DNA of 64,000 nucleotides from Aeromicrobium camelliae (GTDB lineage Bacteria; Actinomycetota; Actinomycetes; Propionibacteriales; Nocardioidaceae): NCBI RefSeq assembly GCF_003850045.1, contig NZ_RQJX01000002.1, forward strand, positions 1 through 64,000, given 5' to 3'. Position numbers and translations under genes: made by a program. The notes under the pieces are model-generated. The model made no database searches and had not been told where the DNA came from. It saw nothing but the letters and a program-made list of their open reading frames with translations. Below are positions 29,261-59,524 of this stretch, piece after piece; the stretch's first letter is position 1; each line of letters opens with the position of its first letter.

Positions 29261-29941
29261 TCAGGTGCCGTACTTGTAACCGAGGCCTCGGACCGTGGTG
29301 AGGGTGACAGGATGCGCGGGGTCGGGTTCGATCTTGGCGCGCAGCCGCTTGACGTGGACGTCGAGCGTCTTGGTGTCACCGACGTAGTCAGCGCCCCACA
29401 CGCGATCGATGAGCTGCCCGCGGGTCAGCACTCGACCGGGGTTACGCAGGAAGAACTCGAGCAGTTCGAACTCCTTGAGCGGGAACCGCACCTCCTCGCC
29501 GTCCACCGTGACGATGTGGCGGTCGACGTCCATGCGGACCGAGCCGACCTGCAGCGTGGGGCTCTCCTCGACCTCCTCCACGCCGCCGCGGCGCAGCACG
29601 GCGCGGATGCGCGCCACGAGTTCACGTGGCGAGTACGGCTTGGTGACGTAGTCGTCGGCACCCAGCTCGAGGCCGACGACCTTGTCGACCTCGGTGTCCT
29701 TGGCGCTCACCATGATGATCGGGACGGCCGACGTCTGACGGATCGTGCGGCACACTTCGGTGCCGGGGATGCCCGGCAGCATGAGATCGAGCAGGACGAT
29801 GTCGGCGCCACCGCGTTCGAACGCCTCCAGCGCGTCCGGTCCGGTCTCGGCGACGGCGACGTCGAAGCCCTCCTTGCGCAGCACATACGACAGCGCTTCG
29901 CTGTAGGAAGCCTCGTCCTCGACGATCAGAACCTTGGTCAC
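29261..29941 (-). CDS. regX3: Phosphate-responsive response regulator RegX3 (PhoP)
   Basis: 226 residues, OmpR/PhoB family. Receiver domain with phospho-acceptor Asp52 (LLDLMLPGIPG), acidic pair ED at 9, Lys near 104; winged-helix DNA-binding domain with RVLTRGQLIDRVWGADYVG and DVHVKRLRAKIEPD. The kinase gene overlaps it by 4 nt (ATGA) and both face away from phoU. Under phosphate starvation it should bind the PHO boxes found in this window (31148, 43029, 51500, 55788). Confidence 0.93.
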   Translation of the reverse strand: MTKVLIVEDEASYSEALSYVLRKEGFDVAVAETGPDALEAFERGGADIVLLDLMLPGIPGTEVCRTIRQTSAVPIIMVSAKDTEVDKVVGLELGADDYVTKPYSPRELVARIRAVLRRGGVEEVEESPTLQVGSVRMDVDRHIVTVDGEEVRFPLKEFELLEFFLRNPGRVLTRGQLIDRVWGADYVGDTKTLDVHVKRLRAKIEPDPAHPVTLTTVRGLGYKYGT

Positions 29942-31074
29942 AGTTGCTCCTCATCGAGCGTTACGGCTGGCAGCACCAGCGTGAACGACGAACCGAGGCC
30001 GGGTTCGCTCCAGACCTCGACGGTGCCGCCGTTGCTGGCGGCGACGTGCTTGACGATGGACAGCCCCAATCCGGTGCCACCCGTGGAACGCGCTCGGGCC
30101 GGGTCGACCCGGTAGAAGCGTTCGAAGATGCGCTCCAACTCGGTATCGGGGATGCCGATACCGGTGTCGGAGACGGTGATGCGGACGTCCTCCTCGTCGC
30201 GCGTGGCGATGACGGACACCTTGCCGCCCGCGTCGCTGTACGTGACGGCGTTCTCGACGAGGTTGCTCACCGCGGAGTGCAGCTGGGCGCGGTCGCCGTG
30301 GACGATCAGGTCGGGCTCCACCTCGGTGGCGATCTCGATGTCCTTGCCCTCCGCCTCGGTCGCCGAGTGCTCGGCCGCCTCTGCAACGAGCTCGGAGACC
30401 TTGACCGCCGAGGCGTCCTCGCTGGCGGTGTCGTTCTGGAGGCGCGAGAGGTCGATGATCTGTTGGACGAGGCGGGTGAGCCGCTCGCTCTCGGCTTGCA
30501 TCCGCTGAGAGAAGCGAGTGACCGCCTCGGGGTCGTCCTTCGCCTCGCCGACAGCCTCGGCGAGCAGGTTCAGCGCGCCGATGGGGGTCTTCAACTCGTG
30601 GCTCACGTTGGCCACGAAATCGCGGCGGATGGTCTCGACCTGCCGCTCGCGGGTGCGGTCGTGGATCAGAACGAGCTGCAGGCGGCTCGTCAACGGGGCG
30701 ACGCGCGCGTGCACGTGGATCGGCGGGCGGCGACGCTGACGGATCGTCAGGTCGGCCTCGCGGACCTGGCCGTCGCGGCGGACCTGATGACTGAGCTCGG
30801 TCAGCTCCGGCGGCGCGATCTCCCCGTCCCTCACGATGCCGAGCGCGATCGCCGGTGCGGAGGCCTGCACGACCGCGTCGGTGTCGTCGATGAGGACGGC
30901 CGAGGAGGAGAGCACGGCGAGGACGTCCTTGACGCCCGGAGGGACCAGCGGCGGTTCCTCGACCGCGGGCACGGACTCCTGGCGGCGTTCGCTCAGACTC
31001 CACACCCAGGCGAGCGCGGCGCCGAACACGACGCCGAGCATCCCCACGATGACATAGCTCGCGCTGACCTCCAC
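29938..31074 (-). CDS. senX3: Phosphate-sensing histidine kinase SenX3 (PhoR)
   Basis: 378 residues from GTG 31074. I chose this start because the membrane segment YVIVGMLGVVFGAALAWVW follows directly and TACGAT (31082-31087, minus) stands 7 nt upstream; a longer frame to 31134 would include the promoter. A degenerate PAS region precedes the H box (FVANVSHELKTPIGALNLLAE), N box (LVENAVTYSDAGG) and G boxes (DTGIGIP, GTGLGLSIVKH). Short N-terminus without a periplasmic sensor fits sensing via PstSCAB-PhoU. Confidence 0.92.
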   Translation of the reverse strand: MEVSASYVIVGMLGVVFGAALAWVWSLSERRQESVPAVEEPPLVPPGVKDVLAVLSSSAVLIDDTDAVVQASAPAIALGIVRDGEIAPPELTELSHQVRRDGQVREADLTIRQRRRPPIHVHARVAPLTSRLQLVLIHDRTRERQVETIRRDFVANVSHELKTPIGALNLLAEAVGEAKDDPEAVTRFSQRMQAESERLTRLVQQIIDLSRLQNDTASEDASAVKVSELVAEAAEHSATEAEGKDIEIATEVEPDLIVHGDRAQLHSAVSNLVENAVTYSDAGGKVSVIATRDEEDVRITVSDTGIGIPDTELERIFERFYRVDPARARSTGGTGLGLSIVKHVAASNGGTVEVWSEPGLGSSFTLVLPAVTLDEEQL

Positions 31075-31147
31075 ATGCTCGATCGTAGGGCGCTGTTCAC
31101 CCAGGATCCGCATCCAGGACCGGCCCGCGCCCACAGTTTCGGTTGTC

Positions 31148-31190
31148 GTTCACGCGGCGTTCATCATGGGTCGCCGAGCGTTCACCCGCG
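31148..31190 (+). promoter_or_regulatory. PHO box cluster between senX3 and phoU
   Basis: GTTCACGCGGC at 31148 and GTTCATCATGG at 31159 form an exact 11-nt direct repeat, the actinobacterial PhoP/RegX3 site. A third GTTCACCCGCG begins at 31180 and an isolated GTTCACC at 31095. Position between divergent senX3 and phoU suggests autoregulation and control of phoU. Confidence 0.75.
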
Positions 31191-31207
31191 CGGCGTAGTC
31201 TCGCCGC

Positions 31208-31858
31208 ATGCGAGACCAGTACTACGAGCAACTCGACCGCATCGTCGACGACCTCGTCACGTTGACCACGACCGTCCGGCGCTCGGTCGCCGACTCCACG
31301 ACGGCGCTCCTGCACGCTGACACGACCATCGCGGAGAAGGTCATCGACGCCGGACGTGACATCGACGCGTCGATCGACGAAGTGGAGGAGCGCGCGCTCG
31401 TTGTCCTCGCCACGCAGCAGCCTGTCGCCACCGACCTTCGTCAGATCGTCGCCGCGCTGCGCATGCTGGCGGACCTGCAGCGCATGAACGCGCTCGCCGT
31501 GCACGTGAGCAAGGTGGCGCGCCGCCGCGTTCCCGAGTCGGCGGTGCCGCTGACGATCCAGCCCACCATCCGCTCGATGGCCTCGGTCGCCGACTCGATG
31601 ATCGAGAAGGCCGCCCGGATCGTCGGCAACCGCGACCTGACGGCCGCCGCGGCCCTCGAGGTCGAAGACGACGAGATGGACCGCCTGCGCGCCGACCTCT
31701 TCCGCGTCCTGCTCGACGGCTCCTGGGAGCACGGCATGGAGGCCGCCATCGACCTCGCGCTGCTCGGCCGCTACTACGAGCGCCTGGGTGACCACGCGGT
31801 CAACATGGCCCGCCGGGTCGTGTTCCTCGTGACGGGCGAGCTGCCGGTCACGAACTGA
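31208..31858 (+). CDS. phoU: Phosphate signalling protein PhoU
   Basis: 216 residues, entirely helical: two three-helix PhoU repeats with metal-site motifs of the E/DxxxD type, visible in EKVIDAGRDIDASIDEVEER (repeat 1) and ALEVEDDEMDRLRADLFRV (repeat 2), plus RYYERLGDHAVNMARRVVF at the end. PhoU links PstSCAB to the SenX3 kinase and holds it off when phosphate is plentiful. Confidence 0.95.
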   Translation: MRDQYYEQLDRIVDDLVTLTTTVRRSVADSTTALLHADTTIAEKVIDAGRDIDASIDEVEERALVVLATQQPVATDLRQIVAALRMLADLQRMNALAVHVSKVARRRVPESAVPLTIQPTIRSMASVADSMIEKAARIVGNRDLTAAAALEVEDDEMDRLRADLFRVLLDGSWEHGMEAAIDLALLGRYYERLGDHAVNMARRVVFLVTGELPVTN

Positions 31859-38938: not shown

Positions 38939-39718
38939 TCAGCCGAAACGGCCCTGGATGTAGGCCTCCGTGGCGGGGTCCTCCGGGTTGGAGAACATCT
39001 TCTCCGTCGGACCGTGCTCGATGAGGCGACCCGGCTGTCCCACACCGGCGAGGTTGAAGAACGCGGTCGTGTCGGACACGCGTGCCGCCTGCTGCATGTT
39101 GTGGGTCACGATGACGATCGTGTAGTCCTTCTTGAGCTCGTGGATGAGATCCTCGATGACGCTCGTCGAGATCGGGTCGAGCGCCGAGCAGGGCTCGTCC
39201 ATGAGCAGGACCTCGGGCTGCGTCGCGATCGCCCGCGCGATGCACAGTCGCTGCTGCTGGCCGCCGGACAGGCCGGAACCGGGACGGTCCAGGCGATCCT
39301 TGACCTCGTTCCACAGGCCGGCGCTGCGCAGCGACCGCTCGACGATGTCGTCGGCCTCGGACTTCTTCATGCGCTTGCTGTTGAGCTTCTGCCCGGCCAG
39401 CACGTTCTCGGCGATCGACATCGTCGGGAACGGGTTGGGGCGCTGGAAGACCATGCCGATCATGCGCCGGACGTTCACCGGGTCCATGTCGTCGGCGTAG
39501 AGGTCCTGGCCGTCGACGAGGACCTTGCCGTCGACGCGGGCTCCGCGGATGACCTCGTGCATGCGGTTGAGGGACCGCAGGAAGGTGGACTTGCCGCAGC
39601 CGGACGGGCCGATGAACGCGGTCACCGAGCGGGCGGCGACGGGGATCGTCACCCCCTCGACGGCGAGGAAGTCGCCGTAGTAGATGTTCAGATCGCTGAC
39701 GTCGATGCTCTTGGCCAT
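38939..39718 (-). CDS. pstB: Phosphate ABC transporter ATPase PstB
   Basis: 259 residues. Walker [10 protein letters not shown], the PstB-typical [21 protein letters not shown]-loop, signature [16 protein letters not shown], Walker [13 protein letters not shown] and H-loop [13 protein letters not shown]. Energises high-affinity phosphate uptake through PstA/PstC. Last gene of pstSCAB. Confidence 0.97.
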
Positions 39719-39723
39719 TGGAT

Positions 39724-40803
39724 TTACCGCTCTCCCTTGGGGCTGAAGAAGTACGAGACGAGTCGGGCTGCGAGGTTCAGCAGCATCACGATGATGAGCA
39801 GCACGAGGGCCGCTCCCCAGGCTCGTTCGATGCTGGGTCCGGGCGGGACGCCCGGAGTGATGATCGAGAAGTAGGTGAACACCGGCAGCGTGGCCATGCG
39901 TCCGTCGAACAGGTTGAAGTTCACCGAGTCGGTCAGACCGGCGATGATGAGCAGCGGCGCCGTCTCGCCGATGACGCGGGCCACGGCCAGCGTCACGCCG
40001 GTCACGATGCCGGCCAGGGCGGTCGGCAGGACGACCTTGACGATCGTGCGCCACTTGGGCACGCCCAGCGCGTAGGAGGCCTCGCGCAGCTCGTTCGGCA
40101 CGAGCTTCAGCATCTCCTCGCAGGAGCGCACCACGACCGGGATCATCAGCACCGAAAGCGCGACCGCGCCGCCGATGCCCATGCGCACGCCCGGACCGAA
40201 GAAGATCACGAACAGGGCGTAGGCGAACAGGCCGGCGACGATCGACGGGATGCCGGTCATGACGTCGACGAGGAACCGGATCCATCGCGCGAGGCGCTTC
40301 CCCTCGCCGTACTCGATGAGGTAGATCGCCGTGAACAGGCCGATCGGGACCGAGATCGCCGCCGCGGCCGCGGTGATGAGCAGCGTGCCCATGAGGGCGT
40401 GGTAGATGCCGCCGCCCTCGCCGACGATGTTGCGCATCGAATATGTGAAGAACTCGCTGCCGAGCACCGGCGCTCCGCGGGAGACGACCGTGGTGAGGAT
40501 GCTGCCGAGCGGGAACAAGGCGATGACGAACGCGGTCGTGACCAGCAGTGTCACGAACCGGTCGGTGGCCTTGCGCCGGCCCTCGACGATCATCGACCAC
40601 AGCGGGATCACGGCGGCGACGAGCCAGGCGACGAACACGAGCCAGAAGCCGACCGGGCCGAACACGCCGACGAGGGCGAGCGCGACGGCGGCGGCCCCGA
40701 ACGCCTTCGGCGCCCAGGTCGGCAGGCTCCGGCCGCGCAGGCTCTGGGCGATCTCCGGCGAGGGCGTCGGGGAGCTGGTGGGGGACTGCATGGTGGAGGT
40801 CAT
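39724..40803 (-). CDS. pstA: Phosphate ABC transporter permease PstA
   Basis: 359 residues from ATG 40803, which overlaps the pstC stop by one base (TGATG); the frame extends further upstream only as a shadow of pstC. A ~30-residue Ser/Pro-rich cytoplasmic start and two extra helices precede the six-helix permease core. EAA coupling loop: [27 protein letters not shown]. Ends [14 protein letters not shown]. Confidence 0.95.
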
Positions 40804-41747
40804 CAGTTCGCTCCCGAGAAGTCCTTGCGGCGCTCGACGATGGCGCGCGCGGCGAAGTTGACGAGGAAGGTGAGGAGGAACAGGACGAGACCGGACGCGA
40901 TGAGCGCGTTGACGGTCAGGCCGGTCGCCTCGTTGAACGTCAGGGCGATGTTCGCCGCGATCGTCGAGGGGTTCGTGGAGCTGATCAGGTTGACGGTGAT
41001 GACGCCGCTCGCCGACAGCACCATCGCCACCGCCATCGTCTCGCCCAGCGCGCGGCCGAGACCGAGCATCGAGGCCGAGATGATGCCGGAGCGGGCGTAC
41101 GGGAAGATCGCGAGCTTGGCCATCTCCCACCGGGTGGCGCCGAGTGCGAGGGCGGCTTCTTCGTGCAGTCGGGGAGTCTGCAGGAAGATCTCGCGACACA
41201 GCGCCGTGATGACCGGCAGGACCATGACGGCGAGCACGATCGACGCGGTGAGGATCGTGCGGCCCGTCGCCGAAGCGGGCCCGGCGAACAGCGGGATGAA
41301 CCCCAGGGTGCGCTCCAGCCAGCCGTAGACCGGGACCAGCGCGGTCGCCAGGAAGCTGATGCCCCAGACGCCGTAGACGACGCTCGGGACGGCGGCCAGC
41401 AGGTCGATGACGTAACCGAGCGTCGCGGCGAGGCGGCGGGGGGCGTAGTGCGAGATGTAGAGCGCGACGCCGATGGCCACCGGGATGGCCATCGCCAGGG
41501 CCAGCACGGCCGCCAGCAGCGTGCCGAAGACCAGCGGGACGACGTAGTCGATGAACGTCGTGCCGTGCTTGACCTCGTCGGGCGAGGCGAGGACGCCGGG
41601 GATGCCCTCGACGGTCAGGAACAGCGCAACGCCCGCAAGCGTCGCCAGGATCGTCAACGCCGCGGCGACGGAGGTGCCGCGGAAGATCCGGTCACCCGGT
41701 CGGGTGGGCGTCGACCGCTTGCGGGCGGTGGACTGGATCGAGGTCAC
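40803..41747 (-). CDS. pstC: Phosphate ABC transporter permease PstC
   Basis: 314 residues from GTG 41747 (GAAAGG upstream). Six helices; coupling loop [28 protein letters not shown]; the conserved [11 protein letters not shown] near helix 3. Forms the membrane channel with PstA. Confidence 0.95.
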
Positions 41748-41796
41748 AGTGGAGCCTTTCGAACGTGGCGGTGGTTCTGGGCGAGAAACCCATGAC

Positions 41797-41825
41797 CCCG
41801 GCGAAGGGTGACACCCTTCGCCGGG
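41797..41825 (-). terminator. Attenuating hairpin between pstS and pstC
   Basis: Perfect 13-bp stem (41797-41809 with 41813-41825), 3-nt loop, 19 bp after pstS and 50 bp before pstC. Probably a partial terminator or 3' stabiliser, giving more PstS than membrane subunits from one transcript. Confidence 0.8.
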
Positions 41826-41844
41826 ATCATGATGTGCCTCTTGA

Positions 41845-42936
41845 TCAGCTGATCGTGTCGATGGCGGCCTGCACCTTCTCGCGGAAGTCGTCCGAGAGCG
41901 GCGCCGAACCGGCACTCTCCGCGGCGGCCTGCTGGCCGTCCTCGCTCACCACGTAGGTCAGCCAGGCCTTGACCAGCTCGGCCTCGGCCGAGTCCTCGTA
42001 GGTCTGGCAGGCGATCTGGTAGGACGCGAGGACGATCGGGTAGACGCCGGACTCGGTCGTCGTGCGGTCGATGTGCAGCGCGATGTCGGTCTCGGCGCGG
42101 CCCTCGACCTGCTCGGCGGTGTCGAGGACGCGCGCCGCGGCCTCCTCGGTCGGCGCGACGTACTCCTCGCCGACCTTGACCGCGACCTTGCCGAGGTCGC
42201 CGGCCTGGCTGGCGTCGGCGTAACCGATGGTGCCCTCGCCGGACTCGACGGCCGCCACGACGCCCGAGGTGCCGTTGGCGGCCTCGCCGCCCTGGATCGG
42301 CCAGGTCTCGACGGCACCGGCGGTCCAGCTGCCCTCCGAGGTGGCTTCGAGGTACTCGGTGAAGTTCTCGGTCGTACCCGAGTCGTCCGAGCGGTGGACG
42401 GGCGTGATCGGGCTGTCGGGCAGCTCGGCGTCCGGGTTGTCCTCGGCGATGGCCGGGTCGTTCCAGGTGGTGATGGTGCCCTCGAAGATGGCGCCGATGG
42501 TCTGGGGGGAGAGCTGGAGGTCCTCGACGCCGGGGAGGTTGTAGATCACGGCGATGGGGCTCACGTACACGGGGATCGAGACGACATCGCTGTCGTTGCA
42601 GCGCTCCTTCGCCTGCGTCAGCTCGTCGTCGTCGAGGTACGCGTCCGAGCCGGCGAACGACGTGCCGCCCTCGAGGAACTGCTCGCGGCCGCCGCCGGAA
42701 CCGATCGGGTCGTAGTTGACCGTGACGTCGGAGTTGGCGGTCTGGAAGCCCTGCTGCCACGCGGACACGGCGGCCTGCTGGGAGCTGGCGCCCGCACCGT
42801 TGAGCGTGCCGGACAGGTCGCTGCTGCTCTCGCCGCCGTCGCCGGCTTCGTTCTCAGCACCGCAGGCGGACAGGCCGAACACGAGCGCGGCGCCGGCGCC
42901 GAGCGCCGCGGCCTTGCGCATGGACTTGCGATTCAC
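41845..42936 (-). CDS. pstS: Phosphate-binding lipoprotein PstS
   Basis: 363 residues. Signal peptide with lipobox LSAC (Cys25). Phosphate-binding segments: LNGAGASSQQAAVSAW, NYDPIGSGGGREQFL, FAGSDAYL, HRSDDSGTTENFTEYL and GTSGVVAAVESGEGTIGYAD. Captures phosphate outside the membrane for PstCAB. GTG start with AGAGAGGG upstream, and a PHO box about 100 bp before the gene. Confidence 0.97.
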   Translation of the reverse strand: MNRKSMRKAAALGAGAALVFGLSACGAENEAGDGGESSSDLSGTLNGAGASSQQAAVSAWQQGFQTANSDVTVNYDPIGSGGGREQFLEGGTSFAGSDAYLDDDELTQAKERCNDSDVVSIPVYVSPIAVIYNLPGVEDLQLSPQTIGAIFEGTITTWNDPAIAEDNPDAELPDSPITPVHRSDDSGTTENFTEYLEATSEGSWTAGAVETWPIQGGEAANGTSGVVAAVESGEGTIGYADASQAGDLGKVAVKVGEEYVAPTEEAAARVLDTAEQVEGRAETDIALHIDRTTTESGVYPIVLASYQIACQTYEDSAEAELVKAWLTYVVSEDGQQAAAESAGSAPLSDDFREKVQAAIDTIS

Positions 42937-43028
42937 GTGGATTCCCTCTCTGGGTCTTTACGACAGGTGCCAGGTCAGCCTGACGTCGTCGACGCTAAAG
43001 AGGGCAGGTGTATCGAAGGCCGAAGCTC

Positions 43029-43046
43029 GGTGAACGGAAAGTGAAC
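43029..43046 (-). promoter_or_regulatory. PHO box of pstS
   Basis: Minus strand GTTCACTTTCCGTTCACC: two GTTCAC(C/T) half-sites exactly 11 nt apart, 92-110 bp before the pstS start. Best-matching PHO box in the window; RegX3 should activate pstSCAB here. Confidence 0.9.
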
Positions 43047-49350: not shown

Positions 49351-51477
49351 TCAGTCGCGCCGGGAACGCCGCGACTTGGCGTGCTCGATGAGCATCGCCT
49401 GCACGTCGTTCTCGCCGTAGCGGGTCCAGACGCCGTCAGAGTCCAGGTGCCAGGACATCGTCTCGGGAGCAGCCATCGTGGCCAGCAGCCTCTCCAGCTG
49501 CTCGACATGCTGGGGTGACGGGACGCGGACGAGGACCTCGACGCGGCGGTCGAGGTTGCGGTGCATGAGGTCGGCCGAACCGATCCACACCTCGGGCTCA
49601 CCGCCGTTGGCGAACCAGAACACCCGGCTGTGCTCGAGGAACCGCCCGAGGATGCTGTGCACGCGGATCCGCTCGCTCAGGCCGGGAACGCCGGGCCGCA
49701 ACGCGCAGATGCCGCGCACGACGAGGTCGATCTCGACCCCGGCCCGGGACGCCTCGTACAGCGCGTCGATGACCACTTCGTCGACGAGCGAGTTGAGCTT
49801 GAACCGCAGGGCGGCGCTGCGTCCGGCGCGCGCGTGCTCGATCTCGCGCTGGATGCGCGCGATGAGACCGGAGCGGACGTCGTGCGGAGCCACGAGCAGC
49901 GCGTCGTAGTCGGTGTTGTGCGCGAATCCGGAGAGGTTGTTGAACAGCTCGGTGAGGTCGTGGGTGATGGCCGAGTTGGCGGTCAGCAGCCCGAGGTCCT
50001 CGTAGTAACGAGCGGTCTTCGGGTTGTAGTTGCCGGTGCCGATATGGGCGTACCGGCGCAGCCCGTCCTTCTCGTTGCGGATGACGAGCGCGAGTTTGCA
50101 ATGTGTCTTGAGGCCGACGAGACCATAGACGACGTGGCATCCGGCGCGCTCGAGTTTGCGGGCCCAGCGGATGTTCGCCTGCTCGTCGAAGCGCGCCTTG
50201 ATCTCGACCAGCACGAGGACCTGCTTCCCGGACCGGGCGGCGTCGATGAGGGCGTCGATGATCGGCGAGTCGCCGGAGGTGCGGTACAGCGTCTGCTTGA
50301 TGGCGAGCACTTCGGGATCGGCGGCCGCCTGCTCGATGAAGCGCTGGACGCTCGTCGCGAACGAGTCGTAGGGGTGGTGCACGAGCACATCGCGCTTCTT
50401 CAGAGCGCTGAACATGTCGGCGGGACTGGCCGTCTCGACCTCCGCCAGGTGCGGGTGCGTGCCGGGCACGAACGGCGGGAACTGCAGTTCGGGCCGGTCC
50501 GCGTCGGCGATCTGATTGAGCGACCGCAGGTCCAACGGCCCGGGGAGCCGGAACACCTCCTCGTCGCTGATGCGCAACTCCGTGACGAGCAGGTTGAGGA
50601 TGTCCTCGCTCATCGTGTCCTCGACCTCGAGCCGCACGGGCGGGCCGAAGCGGCGGCGCAGCAACTCCTGCTCGAGCGCCTTGAGCAGATTCTCGGCGTC
50701 GTCCTCCTCGACTTCGAGGTCCTCGTTGCGGGTGACGCGGAAGATGTGGTGCGCGAGGACCTCCATGCCGGGGAACAGCATGTCGAGATGCGCGGCGATG
50801 ATCTCCTCGAGCGGCACATAGCGGTCGGGGGACGCCTCGACCCAGCGGTCGATGATCGGCGGCACCTTGACCCGGGCGAAGTGCTCCTTGCCGGTGGCCG
50901 GGTTGCGCATCAGCAGGGCGAGGTTGAGCGAAAGTCCGGAGATGTAGGGGAACGGGTGCGCCGGGTCGACGGCGAGGGGCGTGAGCACCGGGAAGACGCG
51001 ATCGCGGTAGAACTCGGTGATCCGCTCCTGCTCGTCCTCGGTCAGGTCGGGCCACTGCAGCAGCTCGATGCCTTCGGCGGCCAGCCCCGGAACGATCGTC
51101 TCGCCGAACAGCTCGGCCTGGCGCTGCATGAGTTCGTAGCTGGCGCGCAGGCTCTCCGAGAGCACACGGCGCGGCTTCAGGCCGCTGGCCGACGGGACAG
51201 CGACCCCGGCGGCGATGCGGCGTTTGAGCCCGGCGATACGGACCATGAAGAACTCATCGAGATTGCTGCCGAAGATGGACGTGAATCGCACGCGTTCGAG
51301 CAAGGGAAGCGAGTCGTCCTCGGCGAGTTCGAGCACGCGGGCGTTGAACGCGATCCATGACAGCTCACGGTCGAGGAACCGATCGTCGGGCAGGCTGCCC
51401 TCGAGCGGGTCGAACGGTGGATCGACGTCGAATTCGTCCGGGGAGGCCGGGGCTTCGATGAGTTCGGAGCTGTCCAC
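49351..51477 (-). CDS. ppk1: Polyphosphate kinase 1
   Basis: 708 residues from GTG 51477. The frame stays open to 51510, but there it would cover a PHO box, so I take the next GTG. Landmarks: [19 protein letters not shown] (N domain), [17 protein letters not shown] (head), [13 protein letters not shown] with the autophosphorylated His about 459, [35 protein letters not shown] and [18 protein letters not shown]. Reversibly makes polyphosphate from ATP. PHO box upstream puts it under RegX3. Confidence 0.95.
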
Positions 51478-51499
51478 ACTGTCACTGTCGCACGAGAAC

Positions 51500-51516
51500 G
51501 TGAACGTCACATGAAC
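51500..51516 (-). promoter_or_regulatory. PHO box of ppk1
   Basis: Minus strand GTTCATGTGACGTTCAC: half-sites GTTCAT (51511-51516) and GTTCAC (51500-51505) exactly 11 nt apart, 23 bp before GTG 51477. Confidence 0.75.
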
Positions 51517-52917: not shown

Positions 52918-53500
52918 GCACGTCGCAGCCCTTGCAGCCCTGCTGCTCGCGCTCGCAGGATGCGGCGGCGAAGAGCCCGGTGAGGCCGAAACCACGCGCT
53001 CACCCGAGTACGAGCGGGCCGACCTCACCTTGCTGCCCTCGAGCGCCCTTCCAGAGGGCTGGACCGAGGTGACCGTGCAAGAACGTCTGGGGTCCTCACC
53101 CGGCATCCCGCAGTACTGCGGCGTTCGAGCCGCGCCGGCCGACGTGGCCGAAGGCCGCATCACGACGTACGACGAAGGCCGCGCGCTCGATCGGTACGTG
53201 ATCGTCTGGAGCATGGTGGCCGACGAGAACGACGCTCGGCAGGTCATGGACGACCTCGCCTCGCATCGCGACGAGTGTGTCCAAGAGGACGGCCGGACCG
53301 GTCGCCCGATCTCGACGCAGGTGGGCGACGAGTCGATCGGGTGGGCGTTCGACGAGCCGGCGTCGTCCGCGTTCCAGGCGATCGTCTTCCGTCGTGATGA
53401 GGTCGTGGTCGTCGTAGCGGCACCCGCGGCCACGGTGCTGCCGGACGCTGAGCAGCGTGCGATCGCCGCAGCGATCGATCAGCGCCTGCTGGACGGCTAG
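52907..53500 (+). CDS. Lipoprotein, unknown
   Basis: 197 residues. Signal peptide [19 protein letters not shown] with the lipobox LAGC. The mature part (LPEGWTEVTVQERLGSSPG; QYCGVRAAPADVAEGRITTY; ECVQEDGRTGRP) has two Cys and resembles small actinobacterial 'sensor' lipoprotein domains, but I cannot name the family. Co-encoded with the SGNH hydrolase (11-nt overlap). Its stop shares CTAG with the mshD stop on the other strand. Confidence 0.78.
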   Translation: MARKHVAALAALLLALAGCGGEEPGEAETTRSPEYERADLTLLPSSALPEGWTEVTVQERLGSSPGIPQYCGVRAAPADVAEGRITTYDEGRALDRYVIVWSMVADENDARQVMDDLASHRDECVQEDGRTGRPISTQVGDESIGWAFDEPASSAFQAIVFRRDEVVVVVAAPAATVLPDAEQRAIAAAIDQRLLDG

Positions 53501-54288
53501 GCGACCGACCAGAGAACGTCGCGCGCGTGTTCCCGGAAGCCGAGACGCGTGTAGACCGCCAGGGCGGGCAGGTTGTCGCCCTCCACGTAGAGGTCGACCG
53601 TGCGGATTCCGTCGTCCCACAGGTGGCGCAGTCCGCGGGCGGTGAGTGCGGTGCCGAGCCCGCCGCCGTGGGCGTCCGGATCGACCCCGACGACGTAGAC
53701 CTCGCCGATCCCGTCCTCGGCCTTCGTCCAGTGGAAGCCCACCACGCGCCCCTCACGCTCGGCGACGAACAGCCCGGCCGGGTCGAACCACTCCTGAGAA
53801 CGGCGTCGGTCGAAGTCCGCGCGGTCCATCGCCCCCTGCTCGGGATGTGAGGCGAACGCCCGCGCGTTGACCTCGACGATGGCGTCGGCGTCGCGCTCCT
53901 CGAACGACCGCAGGGTCACGCCCTCGGGCTGCGGTACCTCAGGTGGCATCTCCAGGTCCAGCCGCAGGACGAGCAGGGTGCGGGTGACCACGAGATCGCG
54001 CGAGACTGCCAGGGCGCGGGCGCCCTCGAGATCGCCGTGGGACCAGAACCGCCGTTCGCCGGAGGCGATCAACCGGTCGAGCAGCGCGCCGCCGTAGCCG
54101 CGGCGGCGCCGGCGCGGGTGGACGACGAGTTCGATCGGTGCGTCCGCGAGAGCGAGCGCTGCCGCCTCCTCGTTCACCTCGTGCACGCGCCACGGGCCGT
54201 CGCCCGCGAGCGCGATCGTCGTCGCCTCGTTGAACGGCGCCACGCCGTCCTCGGCAGTCGCCGCGGCGGCGAGTTCCTCGATGCTCAT
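53497..54288 (-). CDS. mshD: Mycothiol synthase (acetyl-CoA:Cys-GlcN-Ins acetyltransferase)
   Basis: 263 residues, tandem GNAT domains. Domain 1 has VVHPRRRRRGYGGALLDRLI; domain 2, the active one, has RSFEERDADAIVEVNARAFASHPEQG, GLFVAEREGRVVGFHWTK, VYVVGVDPDAHGGGLGTALT and LYVEGDNLPALAVYTRLGF. Last step of mycothiol synthesis. The glnR gene lies 5 kb away, as a neighbour of mshD in mycobacteria; here accD and the large phosphodiester gene lie between. It overlaps accD by 4 nt. Confidence 0.93.
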   Translation of the reverse strand: MSIEELAAAATAEDGVAPFNEATTIALAGDGPWRVHEVNEEAAALALADAPIELVVHPRRRRRGYGGALLDRLIASGERRFWSHGDLEGARALAVSRDLVVTRTLLVLRLDLEMPPEVPQPEGVTLRSFEERDADAIVEVNARAFASHPEQGAMDRADFDRRRSQEWFDPAGLFVAEREGRVVGFHWTKAEDGIGEVYVVGVDPDAHGGGLGTALTARGLRHLWDDGIRTVDLYVEGDNLPALAVYTRLGFREHARDVLWSVA

Positions 54289-55703
54289 GTCAACTCCCTC
54301 AACTGTCCAGCGACCTCGGCGGCCACCGCATGGGCCAACGTCTCGGGGGTGTCCTCGTCGCGCTCGGGGATGAGCCGGTGGACGGTGCCCAGCTCGTGCA
54401 GGTCGAAGGCGCTGATCCGCTGGGCGACGGCGAGTTCCTCCGCGTGATCGATGTCGCCGTGCACGATCGCGCTCGCGCCCTCGGGCGGCAGCGGCGACAG
54501 CCAGGCGTTCTCGGTCGCGATGACGCGCGCCGCCGGCAGGAGAGCGAGCGCACCGCCGCCACAACCCTGACCGAGCAGCACCGAGACGGAGGGCACCTGG
54601 ATCGTCGACATCTGGCTGATACAACGGGCGATCTCCCCGGCGATCGCACCTTCCTCGGCCTGAGGCGAGAGCTCGGCGCCGGGAGTGTCGATGACGGAGA
54701 CGAGCGGGAGCTGCAGCTCGTTGGCGAGCCGGATGCCGCGCCGCGCCTCGCGCAGGGCCGCCGGACCCATCGGCTTGATCCGCGTCTGGGTGGTGCGGTC
54801 CTGGCCGACGACGACGCACGGCACGCCGTCCAGACGCGCGATCGCGACGATCATGGCGGAGTCGCGCTCGCCCTTCTCGGTGCCCTGCAGGCGGATCGTG
54901 GCGTCGCTGCCGTAACGCAGCACCTCCCGCACGCCGACGCGGTCCGGACGCCGCGTGAGTTCGACCGACGTCCACGTGTCGCGGTGGCGGCTCACCGGCT
55001 CGGTGCGACGGTGCCGCTGCGGGTTGGTGACCGGATCGACCAGAAGCGACAAGGCGGTGTCGACGATCGAGGGGAGCTCCTCGGGCAGCACCACCGCGTC
55101 GATGATGCCGCGATGGGCGAGGTTGTCGGAGGTCTGCACGTTCGGCGGGAACGGGACGCCGTTGAGCAACTCGTAGACCTTCGGGCCGAGGAACCCGATC
55201 AGCGCACCGGGTTCGGCGATCGTGATGTGGCCGAGCGACCCCCACGAGGCGAAGACCCCGCCGGTCGTGGGATGGCGCAAATACACCAGGTACGGCAGGC
55301 CGGCCGCCTTGTGGTCCATGAGCGCGCGGGAGATGTCGACCATCGTGACGAACGCCGGCGTTCCCTCCTGCATCCGCGTGCCACCCGACGCCGTCGTCGC
55401 CAGCACGGGCAGCCTCTCGGCCGTCGCCCGCCGTACGGCGGCGACGATGCGTTGCGCGGCCGCCTGCCCGATGGAGCCCGCGAGGAAGCGGAATTCGTTG
55501 ACCACGACCGCGACCGGTCGCCCCTTGACCGTCGCCCGGCCGGTGACGATGGACTCGTCGGTGCCGGCTCGCTCGGCCGCCGCCTTCAACTCGGTGCGAT
55601 ACGGCTCGGGGTGGTGCGAGATGTCGATCGGCTCGTCCCAGGAGGTGAACGAGCCCGGATCGAGAACCAGGTCGATGAGCTCGTGCGTCGTCAGGCGTCC
55701 CAC
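54285..55703 (-). CDS. Acyl-CoA carboxylase carboxyltransferase (alpha/beta fused type)
   Basis: 472 residues with both crotonase-fold halves on one chain. The beta half (about 1-220) holds NEFRFLAGSIGQAAAQRIV and TASGGTRMQEGTPAFVTM; the alpha half (about 250-472) has VVVGQDRTTQTRIKPMG, LVSVIDTPGAELSPQAEE, LGQGCGGGALALLPA and GASAIVHGD. Without the zinc-finger of bacterial AccD it is the actinobacterial AccD/AccDA type, carboxylating acetyl-CoA or another acyl-CoA with a biotinylated partner encoded elsewhere. GTG start; TAGGCT (55710-55715, minus) 6 nt upstream. Confidence 0.88.
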   Translation of the reverse strand: MGRLTTHELIDLVLDPGSFTSWDEPIDISHHPEPYRTELKAAAERAGTDESIVTGRATVKGRPVAVVVNEFRFLAGSIGQAAAQRIVAAVRRATAERLPVLATTASGGTRMQEGTPAFVTMVDISRALMDHKAAGLPYLVYLRHPTTGGVFASWGSLGHITIAEPGALIGFLGPKVYELLNGVPFPPNVQTSDNLAHRGIIDAVVLPEELPSIVDTALSLLVDPVTNPQRHRRTEPVSRHRDTWTSVELTRRPDRVGVREVLRYGSDATIRLQGTEKGERDSAMIVAIARLDGVPCVVVGQDRTTQTRIKPMGPAALREARRGIRLANELQLPLVSVIDTPGAELSPQAEEGAIAGEIARCISQMSTIQVPSVSVLLGQGCGGGALALLPAARVIATENAWLSPLPPEGASAIVHGDIDHAEELAVAQRISAFDLHELGTVHRLIPERDEDTPETLAHAVAAEVAGQLRELT

Positions 55704-55787
55704 GCGGCGAGCCTAGGCCATGTGCGCCGTGCGTGTCGGAGCGCGCGGACGGGCGAGTGAGACATCCCACGTCGCGTCGCCACGCGA

Positions 55788-55805
55788 GTTCGCCGTTCGT
55801 TCACC
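55788..55805 (+). promoter_or_regulatory. PHO box before the phosphodiester glycosidase gene
   Basis: GTTCGCCGTTCGTTCACC: GTTCGCC (55788) and GTTCACC (55799) exactly 11 nt apart, 75-92 bp before the start at 55880. One mismatch to GTTCACC in the first half. Suggests RegX3 control of a gene whose product would release phosphate. Confidence 0.6.
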
Positions 55806-55879
55806 GATCCGACCCCGGCCGGTCGGACGGTCTTCCTAGCCTCCCTGAGGCTCTCGTACGGGCCCGCCGATGACCCTTC

Positions 55880-58800
55880 GTGAAAAAGGACTTCATGCTT
55901 CACCGCACTCCCCGATCCCTGTCCACGCGACGGCAAACGCCGTTGGCCGCTGTCCTGCTCGCCCTGCTGGTCGCTCTCGTCGCACCCGGGATTCCCGGCC
56001 ACGCGGCTCCGAGCGACGAGCAACTGGGAGCCGACGGGTCCGTCCTCCGGTCGGCCGTCACCGAGCGCGTCGCCCCCGGACTCGACCTCACCAACTTCTC
56101 CCGGCTGGAGGAGCGAGGCTGGAACGACGGCAACGTCCTCACGGCTGATCTCACGACCCCGACGCTGAGCATGGACGTCGTCGATTCGGGAGCCGTGACC
56201 CGGACGTCGACCGTCAGCGAGCTGGCTCGCGACAACGGCGCGGTCGCGGCGGTGAACGGCACGTTCTTCGACATCAACCACACCAGCGCGCCCAACTACA
56301 CCTCGATCTCGTCTCGCGACGGCATGCGGGTCGGAACGCCCACTGCGATGCCGAGCCTGACCCTCGCCCAAGGACGCGCCGCGGTGCAGCTGCTGTCGGC
56401 CGAGGGCACGCTGACGGTCGACGGCGTCGAGCACGAGCTCGAGGGTCTCAACAACCCGCGTCTGCCTGCCGACGCGATCGGCGTCTACACGGGCGCCTGG
56501 GGCGACCACTCGCTGGATCGTCCTGCCGGCGCGCCGGAGGCTCCCGCCGAGCAGGTCGCCCTCGCGACCGTCGTCGACGGCACCGTCACCGAGGTCAGCG
56601 GGATCCTCGACGCGCCCGGCGCGGCCGACATCGCCGAAGGTGAGCAGGTGCTGCTCGGCCGTGACGCCGGTGCCGCGGTGGTGGCCGACCTGGAGGTCGG
56701 GCAGAACCTCGAGATCGAGGTCGGCCCGTCCGCCGACGTCGACATGGCGATCGCGGGGAGCCATCAGATCCTGCGCGACGGGGAGGTTCCCGAGCTCAGC
56801 GGCAGCCTCGCGACCTCGGTGCACCCGCGCACCGCGGTCGGCATGAACGCCGACGGCACGGAGCTGTTCGTCGTCACGATCGACGGACGCACCGCGGCAT
56901 CACGCGGGATGACCCTCCCGGAGCTGGGTGAGTTCATGGCCGACCTCGGTGCCGAGAACGCGGTCAATCTCGACGGCGGCGGTTCGACGAGCATGGTCGC
57001 GAGGCCGGCCGGTGCCGAGGACGTCCGGGTGCAGAACACCCCGTCGGACGGTCACGAGCGGCAGGTGCCGAACGCTCTCGTCTTCTACTCCTCGGCACCG
57101 GCCGAGCAGCTGAGCGATGCGAAGATCGAGCCGCAGATCGAGGGACAGACGACGATCTTCGCCGGTCAGCACCGGACCTTCGAGGGAATCGGCCTCGGCG
57201 CCAACCTCGAGCGCATCGCGGCGGACGGCGAGTTCAGTGTCGACGGCCCGGTGGAGCTCACGGAGGCCGACGGACGTGCCGCGACCGTCCAGGGCACCGC
57301 TCCCGGTGAAGGACATGTGGCGTACCGCGTCGGCGGGCACCAAGCACGCCTGCCCGTGCGCATCGTGGGCGAACTCGTCGGTCTGCGGTCCAGCACCCCG
57401 GCCATCAACCTCGCGGATGCCGCTGCGTCGGCAGAGGTGACGATCGACGGTTTCGATGCCGACGGACATGTCGCACGCATGGAGGCACGCGACCTCGAGG
57501 TCAGCGCCGACCCTGGCCTGCGCGCCACCTCCGACGGGCAGGGCACGTTCCTGGTGCAGGCCACGAGCCCCTCCGCCTCCGGTCACGTGACGTTCCGGTC
57601 CGGCGAGGCCCAGGTACGGGTCGCGGTCGCCGTCGGTACCCGCGAGGTGCCGATCACCGACTTCGGCGATCTCGACGGGTTCTCCGACGAGACCGCCCGG
57701 GCCACCGGCAGTTTCTCGGCCGCCAAGGGACCTGAGCCCGGCACTCCCGCGGTACGCCTGCAGTACGACTTCACCACCTCCACGGCCACCCGCGGCTACT
57801 ACCTCATCAAGGACGAGCCCGTCACGATCGACGGCGACGCTCTCGCGTTGGAGATGGACATCAAGGGCGACGCCTCGGGCGCCTGGCCGCGCCTGCAGGT
57901 GCGTGCCGCGGACGGCACCGTGACGAATGTCGACGGCCCCACCATCACGTGGGAGGGCTGGCAGCGAACGCGCTTCACGGTCCCGGCCGGACTGGCGCAG
58001 CCGTTGTCCGTGGAACGGGTCCGGATCATGGAGACCCGACCTGCGGCGTCCTACCAGGGCGACATCATGATCGCCAACCTGCGGGCCATCACCACGCCCG
58101 CCGCGTCAGCGGAGTCTCCGGCCACGGTGCACGATCCCGCCCTGCTCGCCCACGGCACCGTGGACGAGCGCCCGCAGCGCATCGCGGTGATGAGCGATGC
58201 GCAGTTCGTCGCCCGCGATCCCGAGAGCGGAGCGGTGGACGGGGCGCGACGCACGCTGCGGGAGATCCGAGCAGCTGAACCGGACCTGCTCGTCATCAAC
58301 GGCGACTTCGTCGATGAAGCGTCGCCGAAGGACTTCGCGCTGGCTCGGCGCATCCTCGACGAGGAGTGGACCGACGACATCCCGTTCGTCTACGTGCCCG
58401 GCAACCACGAGATCATGGGCGGCAGCATCGAGAACTTCGAGGCCGCCTTCGGGCCCGCCAGCACCGAGCAGACCCTCGGCAGGACGAAGCTCCTCACGAT
58501 GAACTCGGCCGGCGGGTCGCTGCGGAGCGGCGGCATGGACCAGCTGCGCGAGCTCGAACGCACGTTGGACGAGGTCGCCGACAGCGATCACCTCACCGGG
58601 CTCGTCGTCTTCTTCCACCATCCGCCGCAGGACCCGCTGCCGACGAAGCACAGCCAGCTCTCAGACCGTCGCGAGGCGACCGAAATCGAGCGGTTGCTAG
58701 GGGAGTTCCGGGCGTCATCCGGCAAGTCGGCCGCCGTCGTCAACGGACACTCCGGGGTGTTCCACGGCTCCGCGACCGAAGGCGTCACCTACCTGGTCAA

Positions 58801-59524
58801 CGGCAACTCCGGCAAGAGCCCCTCGGGGACTCCGGGCAACGGAGGCTTCACCGGGTGGATGATGCTCGGGATCGACCCCGGTGCGGGCCTGCTGCCCGGC
58901 GCGCCGCAGGTGCAGGACCGAATCGAGTGGCTCGCGGCGGAGACGCGACCGTGGGTGGACGAACTCGCACTCGAGGCTCCCGGCCATCTCATGGTGGGGC
59001 AGAGCGCCGACGTGGCAGCCACGCTGATGCAGGACGGCCGGGAGGTTCCGGTCGCGTGGCCGGTCACGTCCCAGTGGGCCGGTGACGGGGTCGCGGTGGA
59101 CGACGGCCGCGGCCTGGCCGCCGCCGCGGCGACGGACGCGGTGGTGCGGGTCAATCCGAGCACCGGGCAGCTGACGGCCCTTCAGCCCGGCACGGCGACC
59201 GTGAGCGTCACCGTCAACGGCCGCTCGGCCCAGCTGGCGGTGGAGGTCGTCGCCGATCCCGCGCAGCCGGAGGTCCCGGAGCAGCCCGGCGAGCCCGGCG
59301 AGCCGGGCTCGGGTCAGCCGGAGCAACCAGGCCGACCCGGCACCGAGGAACCCGACGCCGCTCCGCCGGCTCAGGGCGATGCGGTGGACCGGTCGGCGGC
59401 GCGCGACGGGGCACTGCCCGCTGCGGGGGCCGCTGCGTGGACGGCTGCGGCCGTCGTGGTGGCGCTGGTGCTGCTCGCCGCCGGCGCGGCAGCGTGGCGG
59501 CGAGGCTCGACGCGCGAGTCCTGA
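55880..59524 (+). CDS. Secreted phosphodiester glycosidase and metallophosphoesterase, LPAAG anchor
   Basis: 1214 residues (GTG 55880; ATG 55895 also possible). Signal peptide about 1-42. NAGPA/DUF2233 phosphodiester glycosidase domain to about 410: AAVNGTFFDIN (126) and NLDGGGSTSMVARP (364), the motifs of the enzyme that uncovers GlcNAc-1-phosphodiesters. Two Ig/beta-sandwich regions follow. A calcineurin-type metallophosphoesterase spans about 765-960: AVMSDAQF (first His of the usual DxH is Gln), NGDFVDE, GNHEIMG, FHHPP, GHSGVFHG. A BIG2-like domain, a Pro/Gly/Glu-rich linker, then LPAAG (about 1179), a hydrophobic helix and WRRGSTRES: sortase-like surface anchor. A PHO box lies upstream. 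Substrate unknown. Confidence 0.85.
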   Translation: MKKDFMLHRTPRSLSTRRQTPLAAVLLALLVALVAPGIPGHAAPSDEQLGADGSVLRSAVTERVAPGLDLTNFSRLEERGWNDGNVLTADLTTPTLSMDVVDSGAVTRTSTVSELARDNGAVAAVNGTFFDINHTSAPNYTSISSRDGMRVGTPTAMPSLTLAQGRAAVQLLSAEGTLTVDGVEHELEGLNNPRLPADAIGVYTGAWGDHSLDRPAGAPEAPAEQVALATVVDGTVTEVSGILDAPGAADIAEGEQVLLGRDAGAAVVADLEVGQNLEIEVGPSADVDMAIAGSHQILRDGEVPELSGSLATSVHPRTAVGMNADGTELFVVTIDGRTAASRGMTLPELGEFMADLGAENAVNLDGGGSTSMVARPAGAEDVRVQNTPSDGHERQVPNALVFYSSAPAEQLSDAKIEPQIEGQTTIFAGQHRTFEGIGLGANLERIAADGEFSVDGPVELTEADGRAATVQGTAPGEGHVAYRVGGHQARLPVRIVGELVGLRSSTPAINLADAAASAEVTIDGFDADGHVARMEARDLEVSADPGLRATSDGQGTFLVQATSPSASGHVTFRSGEAQVRVAVAVGTREVPITDFGDLDGFSDETARATGSFSAAKGPEPGTPAVRLQYDFTTSTATRGYYLIKDEPVTIDGDALALEMDIKGDASGAWPRLQVRAADGTVTNVDGPTITWEGWQRTRFTVPAGLAQPLSVERVRIMETRPAASYQGDIMIANLRAITTPAASAESPATVHDPALLAHGTVDERPQRIAVMSDAQFVARDPESGAVDGARRTLREIRAAEPDLLVINGDFVDEASPKDFALARRILDEEWTDDIPFVYVPGNHEIMGGSIENFEAAFGPASTEQTLGRTKLLTMNSAGGSLRSGGMDQLRELERTLDEVADSDHLTGLVVFFHHPPQDPLPTKHSQLSDRREATEIERLLGEFRASSGKSAAVVNGHSGVFHGSATEGVTYLVNGNSGKSPSGTPGNGGFTGWMMLGIDPGAGLLPGAPQVQDRIEWLAAETRPWVDELALEAPGHLMVGQSADVAATLMQDGREVPVAWPVTSQWAGDGVAVDDGRGLAAAAATDAVVRVNPSTGQLTALQPGTATVSVTVNGRSAQLAVEVVADPAQPEVPEQPGEPGEPGSGQPEQPGRPGTEEPDAAPPAQGDAVDRSAARDGALPAAGAAAWTAAAVVVALVLLAAGAAAWRRGSTRES

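Follow-up and report, generated by a model that had tools for sequence, protein, structure and literature searches.

Which task could bring a phosphodiester glycosidase (NAGPA) domain and a calcineurin-type metallophosphoesterase (MPE) domain together in one bacterial surface protein, and is it tied to phosphate starvation? The question is raised by a gene of Aeromicrobium camelliae, here called the NAGPA-MPE gene, which lies in the 64,000-nt stretch analyzed (contig NZ_RQJX01000002.1, positions 1 to 64,000; hereafter, the window).

Both catalytic domains reside on one exported chain

The reading frame at 55880-59524 (+) is open over 1214 aa, the protein length originally predicted, and as listed it begins at GTG 55880. 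However, the true start is probably ATG 55895, corresponding to a protein of 1209 aa, since a AAAAAGGA stretch is located immediately 5′ of this ATG and the relative L002 (approximately 82% identical) keeps the ATG but has CGC instead of the GTG. The gene has the following parts:

55895..59524, +, gene from the likelier start ATG 55895 (ORF list, translation, comparison with relatives)
55895..56010, +, N-terminal signal peptide with an AxA-type end, approximate (translation read by eye)
56057..57091, +, NAGPA (phosphodiester glycosidase) domain, residues about 60-404 (PF09992; profile matches to solved structures)
57101..57634, +, all-beta stretch, residues about 408-585 (AF2 model; Pfam; fold match)
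57635..58108, +, jelly-roll domain of the carbohydrate-binding-module type, residues about 586-743 (VIA-align fold matches)
58172..58879, +, calcineurin-type phosphoesterase (MPE) with altered metal site (PF00149; conservation; fold match)
58967..59263, +, Big_2-like domain (Pfam Big_2, E 0.0013, 19.1 bits, under the cut-off of 22.8)
59414..59524, +, LPAAG, hydrophobic segment, and basic tail, putative sortase signal (translation; close copies)

Thus, the order is signal peptide, NAGPA, Ig-like domains, carbohydrate-binding-type jelly roll, calcineurin-type MPE, Big-like domain, and LPAAG-TM-basic tail. The motifs named in the original prediction (NGTFFDIN, NLDGGGSTSM, GNHE, GHSGVFHG, and LPAAG with hydrophobic and basic tail) are all present in the translation. 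Pfam profile search, with both domains above their curated cut-offs, confirmed that NAGPA and MPE are combined on a single exported chain, and they share one chain in 20/20 aligned copies.

The NAGPA assignment is based on a PF09992 match at residues 265-403 (E 5.6e-35; 121.5 bits versus a curated cut-off of 25) and on profile matches to the solved NAGPA structures 6pku, 6pky, 6pki, and 6pkg, along with 3ohg, 6ozd, and 5h3k. The conserved NG.FF, RTA.G, DGR, and NLDGGGS blocks of the family are present, the first reading NGTFFD in the window copy and NASFFD in L002. Invariant in all 20 aligned copies are N126, FFD 129-131 (F129, F130, and D131), R317-T318, G321, D335, R337, and LDGGGS 364-369 (including D365).

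Judged from the model, residues about 408-585 probably form two Ig-like domains; in this all-beta stretch, Invasin_D3 was a weak Pfam match below cut-off and the fold matched LigA with a poor rmsd. The jelly roll matched xanthanase (6fhj; Z 13.8), CBM27 (1of3; 11.6), and CBM11 (6r31; 11.3), the top VIA-align row being the flagellar sheath protein FlaA1 (9cyn; Z 17.4). With a pLDDT of 55.7 and a pTM of 0.38, the AF2 model of the whole protein is poor and usable for the middle beta domains only.

The gene shares a promoter layout with pstS

The features relevant for regulation are as follows:

55788..55805, +, PHO box with half-sites GTTCGCC and GTTCACC, 11-nt period (sequence; pattern search; relatives)
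55837..55842, +, TAGCCT, putative -10 hexamer, 31 nt after the box
54285-55703, carboxyl-transferase (accD-like) gene, the real neighbor of the promoter
41845-42936, -, pstS (ORF in the window)
42992..43046, -, pstS promoter with the same layout as the NAGPA-MPE gene (TAGCGT, 31-nt spacing; pattern comparison, as control)
31208-31858, +, phoU (ORF in the window)
31148..31186, +, PHO-like sites in the intergenic region of phoU and sensor kinase (pattern search)
29938-31134, -, PhoR/SenX3-like sensor kinase (NCBIfam, best models below curated cut-offs)
29261-29941, -, PhoB/RegX3-like regulator (NCBIfam, best models below curated cut-offs)

Further Pst-type transporter ORFs are also in the window. 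An mshD call on 53497-55770 was rejected because it derived from an over-long frame.

The sequence GTTCGCCGTTCGTTCACC is located exactly at 55788-55805. The 11-nt direct repeat predicted there is real, but it actually comprises two 7-nt half-sites with an 11-nt period, 18 nt in total. Two 11-nt direct repeat units were described for pstS of S. coelicolor (PMC7866108). In the window, GTTCAYCN4GTTCAYC with at most 2 mismatches was found 7 times versus 0.98 expected, and 0/100 shuffles reached 7.

Could the match nevertheless be coincidental and the gene answer to another signal? Admitting this site required relaxing the pattern at one position, and the 31-nt spacing is post hoc; furthermore, of the 15 genome sites with at most 1 mismatch, 4 are in the window at Pho genes or the NAGPA-MPE gene, and several of the other 11 are inside long ORFs. 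However, the joint pattern box-31 nt-TAGNNT (at most 2 mismatches), whose spacing and one degenerate base were derived from this site and its relatives, matches only two sites in the 3.06-Mb genome, before the NAGPA-MPE gene and before pstS, with 0 and 1 mismatch; the reversed-pattern control gave 0. Moreover, close copies in other genera have retained the box in their upstream regions, its conservation spanning three genera. The best site within 200 nt upstream has at most 2 mismatches in 7/10 close copies and 3 mismatches in the other three, while an equally good site occurs in only 0.4-3.6% of 200-nt windows from the same source. The exact 31-nt spacing is present in six of these ten (window, L002, L005, L006, L009, and L010); L007 has the TAG at 33 nt, and L003, L004, and L008 have none within the first 60 nt past the box. 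A coincidence is highly improbable. In line with the original prediction, the promoter shared with pstS and the box kept in other genera make Pho regulation of the NAGPA-MPE gene very likely, and the two-component pair at 29261..31134 (-), which we take to be of the RegX3/SenX3 type, is its likely controller.

The ppk ORF has a site at its 5′ end (51499-51516, -), which was discounted because of its 2 mismatches and the lack of a TAG within the following 150 nt.

The phosphoesterase has a family-wide change in its metal site

The MPE domain matched PF00149 (Metallophos) at residues 767-958 (E 1.8e-11; 45.3 bits versus a curated cut-off of 21.5). Its best fold relatives among solved structures are the Enterobacter glycerophosphodiesterase GpdQ (2dxl; Z 10.7) and Rv0805 (2hyp; Z 10.2), GpdQ being also matched by profile (E 1.9e-5; profile positions 48-167 only). 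The model of the MPE domain alone (pLDDT 61.7) is adequate for the fold and inadequate for metal-site geometry.

The metal-site residues are D773-A-Q775, G808-D809, N842-H843-E844, H913, and G956-H957-S958-G959. GpdQ and Rv0805 carry the canonical DxH and GHxH ligands. In contrast, all 20 aligned copies have DAQ in place of DxH at motif I and [GA]HxG in place of GHxH at motif V, where the second His is missing. According to the standard metallophosphoesterase scheme, these changes remove or replace two of the four ligands of one metal. The His of GVFH (residue 962) was rejected as a general replacement for the lost metal His, since L013, L015, L019, L020, and L027 carry Ala there. Having lost one usual metal His and carrying Gln for another, the domain cannot simply be credited with the phosphate release known from metallophosphoesterases, and the predicted chemistry of cutting first and then releasing phosphate is weakened accordingly.

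These changes raise the possibility, which we consider unlikely though serious, that the NAGPA domain is the sole working enzyme, while the MPE-like domain is degenerate or strongly slowed and binds the phosphate-bearing polymer, with other enzymes freeing phosphate. Consistent with this are the presence of both changes throughout the alignment, the GHxH kept by two other surface MPEs of the same genome (L071 and L075), and the weak activity of MPPED2, a mammalian enzyme that has Gly at the position of the second motif V His. On the other hand, none of the 20 copies deviates at motif II GDxxD (GD.VD), motif III GNH[DE] (GNHE), the motif IV His, or the first His of motif V, and a dead domain need not keep these. 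In addition, L071 and L075 have DxQ at motif I together with GHxH, so DxQ alone is no sign of lost function.

Close copies carry an anchor-type tail, and the gene was probably acquired

The tail reads LPAAG, not LPxTG; hydrophobic segment and basic tail are present, and the genome holds one sortase (PF04203). Anchor-type tails were found in 8/9 close copies, with LPRTG (L003, L004, L007, and L010), LARTG (L006), MARTG (L005), or LPAAG (L002) at the same place; L009 has no such motif in its open frame. Together with the sortase gene, the tails of the close copies render the predicted sortase-type end plausible. Another surface protein of the same genome ends with LPDAG, TM, and basic tail.

The distant copies (approximately 38% identical) lack both features: 11/11 have no anchor tail and no PHO box (at most 2 mismatches) within 500 nt upstream. 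Therefore, neither is constant in the wider family. Five distant copies (L013, L015, L019, L020, and L027) share a different repeat-like element, GTACACC(T/C)GCGCCTCAC, which was not counted as a PHO box. This element resembles the GTACACCTGAGATTCACC box of L010.

The NAGPA-MPE gene is located between glnR and the accD-like gene, which are directly adjacent in 11/14 same-genus genomes without it, and its presence is sporadic. In an unrooted tree, it clusters with Brevibacterium/Brachybacterium copies and not with copies from its own order; long branches are a caveat where the 9-row clade joins one distant group. Base composition gave no strong sign of foreign origin (GC, 0.714 versus 0.694 for the window; GC3, 0.88 versus 0.91-0.96 in five neighbors). 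Based on the presence/absence pattern, the empty junction, and the tree, the gene was probably acquired horizontally from a source beyond the order, with gene and Pho promoter arriving as one unit. A nearly full-length homologue, annotated "phosphodiester glycosidase family protein," is located on a Streptomyces clavuligerus plasmid.

A scavenger that digests sugar-phosphate glycans or exopolysaccharides of other organisms in the habitat rather than the cell's own wall would fit the sporadic presence and the probable horizontal acquisition, as well as the carbohydrate-binding-type jelly roll and the distant copies, which without anchor would be released; NAGPA-like depolymerases were proposed in Curtobacterium prophages (PMC9862828). 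However, the anchor-type tails of 8/9 close copies favor an own-wall substrate, although a foreign one is still compatible with them. We regard a foreign substrate as quite unlikely.

Relation to described systems

The original prediction knew of no described system of this form, a point that is partly answered. The fusion of NAGPA with a phosphoesterase as such is already known, as surface calcineurin-like phosphoesterases fused to NAGPA are in print for the ShfP family (PMC11188070; PMC11488536), in which some members of the ShfP radiation carry this fusion (PMC11488536). In contrast, the literature searched (subscription journals mostly outside) yielded no publication linking the architecture with the Pho regulon, and none with "phosphodiester glycosidase" and "metallophosphoesterase" together.

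By description, the ShfP (YvnB) radiation resembles the present protein: its members are exported multidomain proteins of similar size with Ig-like/adhesion domains and a calcineurin-like catalytic domain, and here too a surface calcineurin-like domain (Metallophos) is combined with Ig/jelly-roll and Big-like domains. Bacillus subtilis ShfP has a lamin-tail domain and a putative sigma-G site upstream, and no NAGPA domain is described for it (PMC11488536), whereas the NAGPA-MPE gene is preceded by a PHO-type promoter and encodes a sortase-type tail. The active-site residues mutated in ShfP were H1114/H1116 (PMC11488536); the protein studied here has [GA]HxG.

The RTA.G and NLDGGGS blocks are shared with NAGPA, the uncovering enzyme (PF09992, DUF2233). 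While mammalian NAGPA is a Golgi enzyme for mannose-6-phosphate tags (PMC12024695), the domain is found here on a bacterial surface protein with a phosphoesterase. Compared by description, the teichoic-acid phosphodiesterases PhoD and GlpQ of Pho regulons are likewise secreted and belong to the phosphate-starvation response. PhoD is a member of the calcineurin superfamily (PMC11188070), and in S. coelicolor, PhoP mediates the response of glpQ1 and glpQ2 to phosphate starvation (PMC7866108). Unlike the present protein, neither PhoD nor GlpQ is described with a NAGPA domain in the passages of these sources covered here.

A model for phosphate recovery at the cell surface

Given two phosphate-cutting domains, a sugar-binding domain, a pstS-like promoter, and a putative wall anchor, the protein probably takes phosphate from sugar-phosphate polymers under phosphate shortage. 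With modest confidence, we propose a phosphate-starvation cell-surface enzyme that is Pho-induced and wall-linked, in which NAGPA acts before MPE and phosphate is taken up via Pst. Low phosphate would activate the neighboring PhoR/PhoB-like (SenX3/RegX3-type) pair, and the regulator would bind the PHO box at 55788 and turn on the gene jointly with pstS, a step with strong sequence evidence. Judging by its tail, its relatives, and the one sortase gene, the protein would be exported and linked to the wall by sortase, where the jelly roll, as its fold suggests, may hold polysaccharide. As expected from its family, the NAGPA domain would attack a glycosyl-1-phosphodiester of a wall or capsular glycopolymer and hydrolyze it on the sugar-C1-O-phosphate side. 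The MPE, with its altered metal center, would then act on the exposed phosphomonoester or a neighboring diester, and phosphate or glycerol-phosphate would enter via the co-regulated Pst system; both belong to the weakest step of the model. As a precedent, ShfP, a related phosphoesterase of the B. subtilis surface, liberates glycerol and requires its catalytic residues to do so (PMC11488536). A role of wall teichoic acid as a phosphate reserve was described in B. subtilis, and the same was inferred in the case of Planobispora (PMC8269224).

A variant that we consider very unlikely is that the enzyme erases the linkage made by LCP ligases: in starved cells, the NAGPA domain would detach whole wall polymers, leaving MurNAc-6-phosphate, and the MPE would either take off this phosphate or shorten the liberated chain. 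Gram-positive wall glycopolymers are attached to peptidoglycan via GlcNAc-1-phospho-6-MurNAc, which is chemically close to GlcNAc-1-phospho-6-mannose, the human NAGPA substrate. This variant is based on the domain family and the Pho promoter.

The substrates of bacterial NAGPA domains are poorly known, although such domains are widespread. For the enzyme proposed here, the promoter layout shared with pstS provides a concrete condition, phosphate starvation, for the substrate search, and the family-wide change of the MPE metal site leads to a clear prediction for biochemistry. Should the substrate be the wall glycopolymer of the cell itself, this would be a wall-phosphate recovery distinct from the PhoD/GlpQ route.

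Identification of copies of the fusion gene

The gene under study encodes an exported protein that carries a NAGPA domain and a calcineurin-type phosphoesterase (MPE) domain on one chain.

55880-59524, + strand: open reading frame, 1214 aa by translation

ATG 55895 is a more likely start than GTG 55880, because L002, a close copy (about 82% identical), has CGC at the position of the GTG but retains the ATG.

A contig search revealed nine loci, with 82% identity in the best segment for Aeromicrobium phragmitis and 53 to 62% for Brevibacterium, Brachybacterium, and one unclassified MAG. Two reading frames matched in the copy of Brevibacterium yomogidense DSM 24850 (L008:8001-11476), against one in the copy of another strain (L004). 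Among 39 whole genomes, including the own genome, 16 had a match, and 11 carried the gene at nearly full length, with 13 such copies between them. Of 15 plasmid records with matches, two reached at least 80% coverage, at about 39% identity; they come from Streptomyces clavuligerus and Nonomuraea gerenzanensis.

Conservation was analyzed in 20 copies: the window, L002-L007, L009, L010, and 11 distant copies (L013-L021, L027, L028; about 38% identical). Left out were L008 (match spread over two frames), L001 and L011 (the window itself), and L012, whose figures were identical to those of L002 and which is probably the same species. The search flagged in-frame stops in L019 (one), L020 (one), and L021 (two), and both domains were still present in their extracted open frames.

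Domain content

Two Pfam models scored above cut-off, NAGPA (PF09992; E = 5.6e-35) at residues 265-403 and Metallophos (PF00149; E = 1.8e-11) at residues 767-958; an NCBIfam search of the protein at 0.001 gave no match. Compared with solved proteins, a profile of the 20 copies over residues 60-405 matched eight sequences, among them the NAGPA-type 3ohg (1.6e-28), 6ozd (1.6e-21), 5h3k (9.4e-20), and 6pku (1.2e-14). The residues 750-1060 profile matched three, including GpdQ (1.9e-5; profile positions 48-167). The AF2 models were weak (pLDDT 55.7 for full length, 61.7 for the MPE alone). In the weak MPE model, the nearest folds were GpdQ (2dxl; Z 10.7; 5.7 Å over 192) and Rv0805 (2hyp; Z 10.2; 5.6 Å over 183). 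Jelly-roll matches were obtained for residues about 586-743, with FlaA1 (9cyn; Z 17.4) in first place, xanthanase (6fhj; Z 13.8; 3.0 Å over 147) next, and a number of carbohydrate-binding modules at Z 9.7-11.6 after it.

Promoter layout of the gene resembles that of pstS

A PHO box of two 7-nt half-sites with an 11-nt period lies upstream of the gene (55788-55805, + strand). With at most two mismatches, GTTCAYCN4GTTCAYC occurred seven times in the window versus 0.98 expected: twice upstream of phoU, once upstream of pstS, at 55788, at the 5' end of the ppk ORF, and at two other sites. For the genome-wide search, R was allowed at base 5. This loosening was borrowed from the site at 55788, which was then the sole perfect match in the genome. 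At most one mismatch yielded 15 sites (control, 0), 4 of them in the window; when the surrounding ORFs were viewed, several of the other 11 seemed to lie within long ORFs. One 1-mismatch PHO-like site (L040; own contig C1:235273-235290) overlaps the start of an ORF that, by eye, reads like phoH.

The box is followed by a TAG hexamer 31 nt away at the gene (TAGCCT) and at pstS (TAGCGT), and 30 nt away at phoU (TAGTCT). Box, spacing, and hexamer combined, with at most two mismatches, matched only the gene (0 mismatches) and pstS (1 mismatch) in 3.06 Mb (control, 0), a count to be discounted for the post hoc choice of the 31-nt spacing; the findings at pstS and in the relatives count separately. 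Exactly 31 nt was found in 6 of the 10 close copies (window, L002, L005, L006, L009, L010) and 33 nt in L007; in L003, L004, and L008, the 60 nt 3' of the box contained no TAG.

The best site within 200 nt of the start had at most two mismatches in seven close copies and three mismatches in the other three; equally good sites occurred in 0.4 to 3.6% of 200-nt windows from the same source. Fisher's combined p for the ten was 9e-12, which is too optimistic because the copies are related. Within 500 nt on both strands, a box with at most two mismatches was present in 8/10 close and 0/11 distant copies. Five distant copies (L013, L015, L019, L020, L027) have a common upstream element, GTACACC(T/C)GCGCCTCAC, with TAGG(G/T) shortly after. 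This element may represent another type of regulator site for the distant copies.

The likely controller of the gene is a regulator pair in the window:

29261-31134, - strand: PhoR/PhoB-like pair, divergent from phoU

The window is also a phosphate island (29261-31858, 38939-43046, and 49351-51510) with this pair, phoU, pstS and Pst-type transporter ORFs, and ppk; PHO-like sites precede phoU and pstS. The promoter layout is the strongest regulatory result. Pho control of the gene, taken alone, is very probable, in line with the original prediction of PHO-box control.

The MPE metal site is altered in all 20 analyzed copies

According to the original prediction, missing metal or catalytic residues would speak against its two-step surface enzyme, and some of the usual metal-binding residues are indeed absent here. 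The NAGPA blocks common to solved enzymes were invariant in 20/20 copies, as were MPE motifs II (GD.VD) and III (GNHE), the motif-IV His, and the first motif V His. However, all 20 had DAQ instead of DxH as motif I and [GA]HxG instead of GHxH as motif V. Since two other surface MPEs of the genome (L071, L075) pair DxQ with GHxH in a regex reading, the Gln is unremarkable alone and the Gly is remarkable. Under the usual MPE ligand scheme, one metal site retains its ligands, and in the other a His is missing and a second ligand is replaced by Gln. This alteration weighs most heavily against a simple release of phosphate by a metallophosphoesterase.

An anchor-type tail and the PHO box co-occur in one clade

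A C-terminal LPAAG, LPRTG, LARTG, or MARTG, followed by a hydrophobic segment and a basic tail, was found in 8/9 close copies of the 20-copy set; the L009 open frame was without an anchor-type tail. The 11 distant copies stop shortly past a Big-like domain. Since most close copies have each feature and the distant copies neither, putative anchoring and the PHO box are joined in one clade and are not general in the family. One sortase was counted in the genome.

L075 (265-3516, - strand, own contig C7) is a second large surface phosphoesterase, with a lamin-tail domain, Metallophos (DTQF...GHYH), and an LPDAG, TM, and basic end; it looks like ShfP, the B. subtilis surface calcineurin-like phosphoesterase, in architecture. 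L071 (1-3105, + strand, own contig C13) is a third surface phosphoesterase, with a purple-acid-phosphatase N domain, Metallophos, Ig-like, and an LPSTG, TM, and basic end.

The gene occupies a junction that is empty in 11 of 14 genus genomes lacking it

The gene was present in 2/25 genus genomes, the own genome and G023; G003 had a short NAGPA match only. GlnR was searched in 16 of the 25, namely the two with the gene and 14 that lack it; most of the nine remaining genomes were less complete or more fragmented. Of the 14, 11 have glnR adjoining an accD-like gene, with 11 to 74 nt separating the match ends; in three, no accD-like gene was found beside glnR. In the window, the gene occupies this junction. 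In an unrooted tree with a long-branch warning, the window and L002 grouped with the Brevibacterium and Brachybacterium copies (nine rows, 100/100), and 11/11 copies from the window's own order fell on the opposite side. Sporadic presence, the empty junction elsewhere, and the tree grouping fit a horizontal gain of the gene, promoter included. The base composition of the gene bore no strong mark of foreign origin.

Relation to known systems

According to the ShfP paper, calcineurin-like phosphoesterases of the bacterial surface have radiated vastly, and some are fused to NAGPA (PMC11488536; preprint PMC11188070); the paper also shows that, in B. subtilis, ShfP-dependent phosphoesterase activity frees glycerol (PMC11488536). 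The lipocone paper describes other two-enzyme surface proteins with NAGPA (PMC12419801). Because such proteins are in print, the NAGPA-MPE fusion is already known as an architecture, which in part answers the original statement that no described system of this form was known to its author. On Pho control of the fusion, our literature search found no publication.

For the whole chain, we lean slightly toward a wall-anchored, Pho-controlled glycopolymer phosphodiester hydrolase. Of this reading, the domains, the conserved residues, the promoter layout, and the junction are established. Beyond these, the protein would be held at the wall and would bind polymer, the NAGPA domain would be catalytic, the steps would follow a presumed order on a presumed substrate, and phosphate would be taken up. 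New here are the putative Pho promoter, the conserved metal-site change, the anchored clade, and the apparent junction-precise gain.
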